Origin: an uncultured Actinomycetes bacterium
Lineage (GTDB): Bacteria > Actinomycetota > Acidimicrobiia > Acidimicrobiales > Microtrichaceae
Assembly: GCA_903925745.1 (NCBI GenBank)
Contig: CAIYGQ010000146.1
Coordinates: 1 to 64,000, forward strand
Direction: 5' to 3'
DNA length: 64,000 bases
Positions 11,623-14,597 of the stretch are shown piece by piece (positions within the stretch are counted from its first letter, which is position 1; every line of letters starts with the position of its first letter). The notes beneath the pieces were generated by a model that did not search any database, was not told the origin of the DNA, and saw only the letters and a list, made by a program, of their open reading frames with translations. The position numbers and the translations under genes were made by a program.

Positions 11623-12492
11623 ATGAGCGACGACGTGCGTGGAGGGCTTCCGGCGGGATCGGTCGGGGCGACGGTGGTGCGACTCGACCATCTGGCGATG
11701 GACGGTCCGGACGCTGGGATCCGCCTGCTCACCCTGGATCGACCCGATCGCCTCAACGCCATGAACCCGGCGCTCATCGACCAGCTCCACGACCGGATCG
11801 AGGAGCTCCGTGCCGACGTCGACGCCCGGGTGGTGGTGCTCACCGGAGCCGGGCGGGGCTTCTGCTCCGGACTGGACCTGCACGACGCCTCGCCCACCGG
11901 GCTCGCCGACACCGAGGGCCGCGGACGGATGCAGCGGGGCATGGACGTGCAGCAACGGATCGCCGGCCTGGTTCCGGCGCTGCGGTCGCTGCGCATCCCC
12001 GTGATCGCCGCCGTCAACGGCGCCGCCGCCGGCGGCGGGCTGGCGCTCGCTCTGGCCTCGGACGTCCGGATCGCCGCGGCGTCGGCCAAGTTCAACGTGG
12101 CCTTCGTGCGGATCGGACTCTCGGGCTGCGACATCGGTGTCTCGTGGCTGCTCCCCCGATGGATCGGCGCATCGCGCGCCTTCGAGCTGATGCTGACCGG
12201 CCGGATGGTGTTCGCCGAGGAGGCCGAACGCATCGGACTCGTGAGCCGGGTCGTGCCCGACGACGAACTGCTCGACGCCGCGCTCGACACTGCACGGCTC
12301 GTGTGCGCCAACAGCCCGACCGGGGTATGGATGACCAAGGAGGTCATGTGGGCGCAGCTGGAGGTCGCCAGCCTCACGGCCGGGATCGACCTGGAGAACC
12401 GCACGCAGATCCTCACCTCGTTCACCGAGGACATGCACGAGGCGGTCGGCGCCTTCCTGGAGCGACGGCCCGCGCAGTTCCGCAACCGCTGA
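11623..12492 (+). CDS. Enoyl-CoA hydratase/isomerase family protein
   Basis: LTLDRPDRLNAMNPALIDQL...VVVLTGAGRGFCSGLDLHD...PVIAAVNGAAAGGGLALALASDVRIAA. Confidence 0.92.
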   Translation: MSDDVRGGLPAGSVGATVVRLDHLAMDGPDAGIRLLTLDRPDRLNAMNPALIDQLHDRIEELRADVDARVVVLTGAGRGFCSGLDLHDASPTGLADTEGRGRMQRGMDVQQRIAGLVPALRSLRIPVIAAVNGAAAGGGLALALASDVRIAAASAKFNVAFVRIGLSGCDIGVSWLLPRWIGASRAFELMLTGRMVFAEEAERIGLVSRVVPDDELLDAALDTARLVCANSPTGVWMTKEVMWAQLEVASLTAGIDLENRTQILTSFTEDMHEAVGAFLERRPAQFRNR

Positions 12493-13121
12493 TGCCAGCG
12501 ACCACGACCCGGTCGGGGTGGCGGGACGCGGCCGCCGACCTGGCACGACGGCACCCGGTGCTCGAACGGCTCCACGCGGACCATGGTCCGCCGACGATCG
12601 GCCCGGGCGCACCGCCCGGTGAACGTTTCGCCGCCACGTGCCGGGCCGTCGCCCACCAGCAGCTCGCCGGCCGGGCCGCGGCGACCATCTGGTCGCGTGT
12701 CGTCGACACGGTCGGTGAACCCTTCGAGCCCCGAGCCGTCCTGAACGCCGGAGCCGCGCGACTGCGCTCCGCCGGCCTGTCGAACGCCAAGGCCACCACC
12801 CTCCTGTCGCTGGCCGACCACACCCTGGACGGCTCGCTGGACTGGCGCCGGGTCGCGCGGCTCGACGACGGGGACGTGGTCGCCGAGCTCACCCGGGTGC
12901 GGGGGATCGGTCCGTGGACCGCCCAGATGTTCCTGATGTTCGAGCTGCGTCGGGTCGACGTCTGGCCGACGGGCGACCTGGGCGTCCGCGCGGGGTACGC
13001 ACGAGCCTTCGGACTCGACCAGGTGCCCGATGCCCGGACGCTCGACGAGCTGGGCCGGCCGTGGGCGCCGTTCCGCTCGGTCGTGGCCTGGTGGTGCTGG
13101 CGCGAACTTGACTCCGGCTGA
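12492..13121 (+). CDS. DNA-3-methyladenine glycosylase (AlkA-like HhH-GPD)
   Basis: AVAHQQLAGRAAATIWSR...VRGIGPWTAQMFLMFELRRVDVWPTGDLGVRAGYARAF; overlaps the previous stop (TGATG). Confidence 0.88.
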   Translation: MPATTTRSGWRDAAADLARRHPVLERLHADHGPPTIGPGAPPGERFAATCRAVAHQQLAGRAAATIWSRVVDTVGEPFEPRAVLNAGAARLRSAGLSNAKATTLLSLADHTLDGSLDWRRVARLDDGDVVAELTRVRGIGPWTAQMFLMFELRRVDVWPTGDLGVRAGYARAFGLDQVPDARTLDELGRPWAPFRSVVAWWCWRELDSG

Positions 13122-13180
13122 GACCGGGACTGTCCAGCGGGAGAGCTCCCGCGGGTGGCTGTCACAGGCTCCGGATAGAA

Positions 13181-13194
13181 CGAACATGTGTTCG
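13181..13194. promoter_or_regulatory. LexA/SOS-box-like CGAACATGTGTTCG overlapping the GTG start of the DUF222-HNH gene
   Basis: Exact match to the actinobacterial core CGAAC-N4-GTTCG. Confidence 0.75.
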
Positions 13195-14597
13195 ATCACC
13201 AGACCACCGAGGCCACCCCGCTCGACGACCTCCTCGTCGACGCCGCCCCGCCGAGCCACACAGACGTCACCGCCTGCGGGGACGAGGAGCTGATCCGTTC
13301 CGTCGAGCGCGTCGAGGCCGCCCGCCGCGCCCTGGACGCCACCGCCGCCCGGCTCGCGGACGAACTCGAGCGACGCGGCACGACCACCACCCGTGACGGT
13401 CTGCGCACCCCGGGATGGCTGGCCTGGAGGTTCGGACTCCCCCGGCAGGATGCCGCCAGCCTGGTTCGGGTCGGTCGGTTCCTGTCCGAGCACCCGGTGA
13501 TCGCCCGGGCCCTGGAGGGCGGCATCCTGTCCGCGTCCCACGTACGACTGCTCGTCAGGGCGTGCACCCCCCGGGTCGCCCAGGTGGTCCATCTGATCCA
13601 GGAGCAACTCGTCGACCTGGCACGCGGGACCCGCTTCGAGGTCTGGGCCCGCGACGTCCGGGCGCTGCTCGACCTGGCCGACCAGGACGGCGGCCACGAA
13701 CCCCGCCTGCAGGACAACCACCTCGACGTCGTGACCGACGCCGATGGCGGCGTCCTGGTCCACGGTGAACTGGTCGGTGCGTGGGCGGCGGAGTTCCGTG
13801 CGGCGATCGACGCCGAGGCCGACCGGATGTTCCGGACCATGCTCCGGGATGCGGCCAGCACCGGGGGCGAGACCCCGCAGTTCCGCCGGCCCCAACTGCT
13901 GGCCCTCGCACTCGTCGAACTCGTGCGTCAGGGTCGGGCCGCAGGTCGGTCCGGCCAGGCACCGGTGGGCGACGTCACCGTCGTCCTGACGACGCCGCCG
14001 TCGCTGCCGGCGGAGCTCCACGGGCCCACACCCGGCCAGAGCGACTCTGAGTGGCTGGACCGGATCACCGCAGCGACCCTCTCGGCCCACGCCCTGGACG
14101 GACGACCGCTCCATCCCACGACCGCCGGCCTCCTCTGCTGCGACGCCTCGCTCCGCGTGCTCGTCGAGACCTTCTCCGGTGAGGCGCTCGCCCTGGGCCG
14201 CTCACAGCGGCTCGCCTCGGCCGCACAACGTCGGGCGGCGGCGGTCCGCTTCGGCGGCTGCTGCTTCCCGGGGTGCGACGCGCCACCGAACTGGGTCGAA
14301 CTGCACCACACCCCGGGTTGGGAGGCCGGCGGCGGCACCGACCTGGACCACCTCGCACCGCTCTGTCGGCACCACCACGGCACGGTCCACCAGCGGGGGT
14401 GGGGGCTGGTACCCGACCAGGACCACGGATTCGTCGTCCTCACACCGTCCGGGAGACGCCTGCCCGCTCAATCCAGGGGACGCGTCCGTCAATCAACGGG
14501 ACGCGTCCGGGTGCGCGGCCCGGCCGATGATCCGATCAGAGCCCGAGCACCCGCGCCGCGTTCCCATGCAGGAACTTCGGCCAGACCTCGTCCTTGA
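13188..14597 (+). CDS. DUF222 / HNH endonuclease family protein (13E12 repeat-family-like)
   Basis: DUF222-type N-terminus (AARRALDATAARLADELERRG); HNH motif GCCFPGCDAPPNWVELHHTPGWEAGGGTDLDHLAPLCRHHHGTVHQ. Confidence 0.9.
   Translation: MFDHQTTEATPLDDLLVDAAPPSHTDVTACGDEELIRSVERVEAARRALDATAARLADELERRGTTTTRDGLRTPGWLAWRFGLPRQDAASLVRVGRFLSEHPVIARALEGGILSASHVRLLVRACTPRVAQVVHLIQEQLVDLARGTRFEVWARDVRALLDLADQDGGHEPRLQDNHLDVVTDADGGVLVHGELVGAWAAEFRAAIDAEADRMFRTMLRDAASTGGETPQFRRPQLLALALVELVRQGRAAGRSGQAPVGDVTVVLTTPPSLPAELHGPTPGQSDSEWLDRITAATLSAHALDGRPLHPTTAGLLCCDASLRVLVETFSGEALALGRSQRLASAAQRRAAAVRFGGCCFPGCDAPPNWVELHHTPGWEAGGGTDLDHLAPLCRHHHGTVHQRGWGLVPDQDHGFVVLTPSGRRLPAQSRGRVRQSTGRVRVRGPADDPIRARAPAPRSHAGTSARPRP
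14473..14512. repeat. 21-bp tandem repeat x2 containing palindrome GGACGCGTCC
   Basis: GGACGCGTCC at 14478 and 14499; encodes QSRGRVR/QSTGRVR. Confidence 0.8.

Follow-up and report, generated by a model that had tools for sequence, protein, structure and literature searches.

A putative leaderless promoter that joins a PafBC-type element to a start-codon-embedded LexA box at DUF222-HNH genes of Acidimicrobiia

The window, i.e., the whole 64-kb stretch of DNA that was analyzed, comes from an acidimicrobiial genome assembly of 3.6 Mb that is 86% complete, and contains a gene of the 13E12 type whose GTG start codon is located inside a putative SOS box. To our knowledge, the 13E12/DUF222 family is large and poorly understood, and its function is undefined. 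The sequence-only reading of this DNA had reported an exact CGAAC-N4-GTTCG palindrome enclosing the GTG codon and a TAGAAC hexamer in front of it; both were recovered at the positions given in Table 1, and the palindrome, CGAACATGTGTTCG, is the sole exact site of this kind in the window. Sites with at most one mismatch number 12 in the window (the exact one included) versus 3.4 expected, an excess that is probably due to codon usage. The GTG is the first start codon of the 469-aa open reading frame, and neither an earlier in-frame start codon nor a Shine-Dalgarno sequence is visible upstream of it. Leaderless transcription of the gene is suggested by this geometry, namely by the distance from the -10-like hexamer and the lack of a Shine-Dalgarno sequence, and a leaderless start at the GTG would mean that the operator itself encodes the first residues, Met-Phe-Asp. 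An out-of-frame ATG is also present inside the box at 13186, 2 nt before the GTG; in the sister orthologues the ATG is in the true frame.

A further element, TGTCACAGG, was overlooked by the sequence-only reading; with it, the model becomes one of dual control and no longer of LexA repression alone. The RecA-NDp motif has the consensus tTGTCRgtg-8 nt-TAnnnT (PMC5656591); it is now attributed to PafBC (PMC8223512), and its -26 part is contacted by the PafB subunit of this regulator (PMC11804915). The window reads TGTCACAGGCTCCGGA-TAGAAC at the -26 and -10 positions, and the TGTCR core occurs 16 nt before the TA (TGTCA at 13160, TA at 13176). Two details of the consensus are unmatched in the window: the last base of the -10 hexamer TAGAAC is C where TAnnnT has T, and TGTCA is followed by CAG in place of gtg. 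Since these mismatches concern consensus details and the core is intact, we refer to the element as PafBC-type; the final T of TAnnnT is present in most relatives.

Table 1. Promoter elements, genes, and SOS sites at the DUF222-HNH locus and in the genome of the window.
Feature	Position	Strand	Basis and remarks
TGTCACAGG, PafBC/RecA-NDp-type -26 element	13160..13168	+	Direct reading and motif-first scan; start of TGTC to TA of the -10, 16 nt
TAGAAC, -10-like hexamer	13176..13181	+	Usual distance puts the predicted +1 at 13188; TA kept at the same spacing in relatives
CGAACATGTGTTCG, putative LexA (SOS) box	13181..13194	+	Covers the predicted transcription and translation start
GTG start codon	13188..13190	+	Box offset 7; predicted leaderless transcription start
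DUF222-HNH (13E12-type) gene, 469 aa	13188..14597	+	Pfam DUF222, 56.3 bits versus cut-off 24.4
HNH region, residues 358-397	14259..14378	+	C358, C363, H373/H374, H388 for the usual N, C393, H397
AlkA-like HhH-GPD glycosylase gene	12492..13121	+	Start overlaps the stop codon of the enoyl-CoA hydratase (ECH) gene; neighbour, outside the promoter unit
Exact SOS sites in the window genome	At lexA (two), recA, dnaE2, ruvC, an exonuclease-GIY gene, and all four DUF222 genes		Locus reading and Pfam scan

We consider it probable that the gene is expressed from a leaderless, damage-inducible promoter, with PafBC as its activator and LexA, sitting on the start site, as its repressor, and we propose that the 35 bp at 13160-13194 constitute the complete promoter. 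Without damage, a LexA dimer on the box would extend over the end of the -10 hexamer, the predicted transcription start, and the start codon, and would keep RNA polymerase out. By analogy with mycobacterial work, damage would generate single-stranded DNA, which would activate RecA and lead to self-cleavage of LexA, and the same damage-derived DNA would separately activate PafBC and result in the recruitment of sigma-A polymerase. In mycobacterial PafBC promoters a -26 TGTC element replaces the -35 motif, and TGTCACAGG is the candidate for this role in the window. Transcription would then begin at or next to the GTG and yield a leaderless mRNA, with the nuclease presumably made only when LexA release and PafBC activation coincide.

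The putative box is part of a larger set of SOS sites in the same genome. Exact CGAAC-N4-GTTCG sites occur 17 times genome-wide, and the reversed control pattern does not occur at all. In addition to the sites assigned in Table 1, an exact site precedes a gene close to dnaE2 that was judged ImuA'-like by eye and has no Pfam match. The sequence-only reading had proposed that a lack of boxes at recA and lexA would speak against LexA control; we found two boxes before lexA, which is adjoined by a LysM gene and nrdR, and an exact site on contig C165 before recA. The GTG start of ruvC likewise lies 7 nt into its box. A search with PF02720 identified four DUF222 genes in this genome, each with a box upstream (4/4); in two of the four, as judged by eye, the box is located behind a sigma-A-like -35 motif and does not show the start-in-box layout. 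The other six exact sites are on C74 (position 5471), C111, C115, C126, C128, and C296, and several of them resemble chance sites in coding DNA. Two exact boxes, L007 (C126:3838) and L008 (C128:20870), are found before or near unnamed genes, which are possible new SOS members. As for the activator, recA of the window genome contains TGTCACAGG-N7-TACGGT in addition to a LexA box next to it, and pafB and pafC are encoded by adjacent genes with HTH_PafC plus WYL and WYL plus WCX domains, at most 5 kb from the Pup ligase gene.

The idea that damage control of this family is conserved beyond mycobacteria is well supported at the sequence level. We searched 30 related genomes and took 100 DUF222 loci from them. 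A box with at most one mismatch is present within 350 nt upstream of 65 out of 95 relatives' DUF222 genes (2.6 expected under a Markov null), and an exact box within the same distance of 26 out of 95 (0.05 expected). Control stretches from the same loci contain a box in 1 to 6 of about 92 cases, and 28 of the 29 exact boxes in 379 kb of these loci are located no more than 500 nt upstream of the DUF222 domain. Box-poor relatives also exist, with boxes at two of nine DUF222 genes in genome G020 and at none of six in G024. DUF222 was found in 81 of 247 sampled genomes of Actinomycetota, and in a phylum-wide sample a box with no more than one mismatch occurs at 17 of the 29 best DUF222 genes versus approximately 0.6 expected, with the null taken from the first pass of the sample. 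Of the 69 loci of relatives whose box has no more than one mismatch, 39 have an in-frame start codon at box offset 7 and three have one at offset 5, the latter offset being seen elsewhere in the phylum sample too. In the relatives' proteins, the start-in-box operator encodes the N-terminal residues Met-Phe followed by Asp, Glu, or Gly.

The same loci bear on a simpler explanation, namely that the SOS box alone matters and is combined with an ordinary sigma-A promoter, TGTCACAGG being incidental or a weak substitute for a -35 motif. Many relatives' DUF222 genes have a box and no TGTC, some of them with TTGACN -35 motifs, and four start-in-box genes of genome G008 lack TGTC although PafC is present, thus the -26 element is not obligatory; PafC occurs in nearly all relatives that were compared for its joint loss with this element. 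However, we regard plain LexA control as unlikely, given the fixed spacing of the two promoter elements: TGTC-N12-TA was detected in 30 of 45 start-in-box loci of relatives versus 0 to 7 loci for any other gap tested, and TGTC occupies the strict fixed position in 29 of 44 such loci from 12 genomes. The syntenic gene in a sister species retains GTGGCTGTCACAGG, GATAGAACGAACA, and TGTTCGATCAC, with differing bases between them, and two further sister species retain the same elements, which makes three in total. Similarly, TGTCACAG is kept in the sister orthologues where the adjoining bases vary, the same element is present at recA of the window genome, and TGTC is fully conserved (27/27) in the dispersed copies of IMCC26256 described below.

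The combination of elements was also used as a search pattern in its own right. A motif-first pattern that is independent of DUF222, TGTCA-N11-TA-N4/5-GAAC-NN-RTGTTCG, has matches in 19 out of 397 genomes of Actinomycetota, and its reversed control has none. The genes 3' of these matches mostly encode DUF222 and/or HNH proteins, and the others include PHP/dnaE2-like and UvrD-like genes; shortened or frameshifted DUF222 copies are preceded by the composite pattern as well. In a scan of named genomes, at least 41 DUF222 loci were recognized by a local profile among the 80 matches listed, and inspection by eye added ruvC-like, uvrD-like, and PHP genes among these matches. The few non-actinobacterial matches among those listed are probably due to chance. 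Four loci from records titled as a Bifidobacterium breve MAG (L203, L205, L245, and L260) contain DUF222 or composite-promoter sequences that closely resemble acidimicrobiial or mycobacterial ones, and the titles are probably wrong.

Multi-copy genomes are relevant to a second alternative, according to which the box and TGTC are shared by descent through recent copying of paralogues and have no regulatory meaning. It is suggested by the many related copies in G014 and IMCC26256, the latter (G046; L337-L356 and related loci) encoding 29 full-length DUF222-HNH genes dispersed over 2.46 Mb. In each of the 27 copies inspected, TGTC, TA..T, and a start-in-box LexA site are present; however, their promoter elements are 100% identical, whereas the inter-element bases vary and the proteins share a median identity of 73%. 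Furthermore, proteins with the same layout across the phylum are only 16-31% identical to the window protein, the same composite precedes unrelated damage genes, and the fourth sister species (G001), which has an internally deleted DUF222 remnant, has lost the promoter elements. Shared descent as the sole explanation is hence very improbable. A chance palindrome at the start codon is already refuted: a 10-base pattern can arise at random, and the window has more one-mismatch boxes than expected (12 versus 3.4), but the start codon has a fixed offset, all four paralogues have boxes, the reversed pattern has no match in the genome, and the footprint recurs in sister species.

The IMCC26256 copies delineate what appears to have been copied. 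In their alignment, identity is random (0.25) beyond approximately -38, reaches about 1.0 in the elements from -29, and is random again right after the stop codon, the flanks being non-homologous; the same similarity borders are seen among the copies in G014 and in G013, a genome of the window's own family. This suggests that the promoter and the open reading frame behave as one dispersing unit. Two intergenic sites contain a DUF222 cassette in IMCC26256 (L385 and L386) and are empty in the congeneric genome G423 (L379-L381); the intergenic DNA at the empty sites is too diverged to align, and the cassette borders thus rest on the comparison of paralogues. As a tentative idea that we hold with low confidence, the DUF222-HNH genes may be damage-triggered dispersing cassettes, in which the copied unit consists of the 36-bp PafBC/LexA promoter and the open reading frame, and the nuclease, made only during DNA repair, would help to insert or homogenize the copies. 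Alternatively, the dispersed copies may reflect old duplication with gene conversion, and gene conversion among REP13E12 copies was reported in M. tuberculosis (PMC13061034).

The name DUF222-HNH given to the gene by the sequence-only reading holds for DUF222 by a Pfam match (Table 1), whereas Pfam HNH gave no match to the window protein at E<0.001. The HNH region reads CCFPGC...HH...LDHLAPLCRHHH, with His in place of the central Asn; the metal-binding Cys/His residues and the HH pair are present, and this orthologue group has H388 at the position of the central N. All 55 sequences compared share C358, C363, H374, and C393. Besides the window protein, the two relatives closest to it have the replacement at residue 388, which may alter the activity. 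In an AlphaFold2 model of mean pLDDT 83.7, in which the score falls below 50 at residues 443-445 and 450-469, the N-terminal part is helical and a beta-beta-alpha segment is predicted at residues 370-401, corresponding to HNH. A PDB fold search with this model returned nothing at E<0.001, the listed matches having TM values below 0.2, thus the DUF222 part yields no functional clue from structure. Profile searches identified IscB/McrA-type HNH matches and weak ParB-type helical matches. The last ~27 residues of the open reading frame are probably a run-on tail. A direct repeat, GGGACGCGTCCG, is located near the 3' end of the frame at 14470-14530, and the DUF222 remnant of the sister species (L360) has an earlier stop than the window frame. 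A reading of the gene as part of a defence system was rejected, with no PADLOC match and no NCBIfam match for the window protein.

The gene is preceded by genes for an enoyl-CoA hydratase (ECH) and an AlkA-like HhH-GPD protein, and is followed by a convergent amidohydrolase gene. The small repair neighbourhood proposed by the sequence-only reading stands in part: the AlkA-like gene is confirmed by its HhH-GPD domain, and the ECH-AlkA-DUF222 order is kept in three sister species as well as in the fourth, which has the DUF222 remnant. However, AlkA is found beside none of the others among the 100 DUF222 loci screened, and the DUF222 gene has a promoter to itself. Outside the genus, the view that linkage to AlkA marks a general repair island was rejected.

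In M. tuberculosis, five putative HNH endonucleases are induced in a RecA-dependent manner (PMC8151990), and 13E12-family HNH genes are among the listed LexA targets (PMC4181829), in agreement with the LexA control of these genes stated by the sequence-only reading. The window gene belongs to the same family and has the same actinobacterial SOS box; unlike the M. tuberculosis genes, it comes from Acidimicrobiia and combines the start-in-box layout and the PafBC-type -26 element in one 35-bp promoter. Several genes with both damage motifs have been reported (PMC8223512). Mycobacterial recA has separate PafBC and LexA-controlled promoters, P1 and P2 (PMC11804915); there, as proposed for the window, both damage pathways act on one gene through the same TGTC..TA motif and an SOS box, but a single promoter carries both elements in the window. 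The lexA gene of M. tuberculosis is leaderless, with its transcription start at the start codon (PMC2897130), which resembles the start predicted here; it is a different gene, and the passages of that study used for comparison mention no PafBC motif for its promoter. Apart from the two main mycobacterial LexA regulon studies (Davis 2002, Smollett 2012), which lay outside the comparison, we found no published account of a minimal promoter that unites both elements around an embedded start codon, of the occurrence of such a promoter beyond mycobacteria, or of where the cassettes begin and end; such an absence is not proof, and both the fusion of the elements and its distribution look new.

For the 13E12/DUF222 family, which can reach about 30 copies per genome, the putative promoter represents a short, testable regulatory device with a start codon within the operator and an activator site at a constant distance of 16 nt from the -10. 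The composite promoter can serve as a marker for finding more damage-response genes in uncultured Actinomycetota. A dual-alarm promoter of this kind is kept from Acidimicrobiia to mycobacteria in front of proteins that are down to ~20% identical, and thus the timing of expression would appear to be central to the role of the protein.
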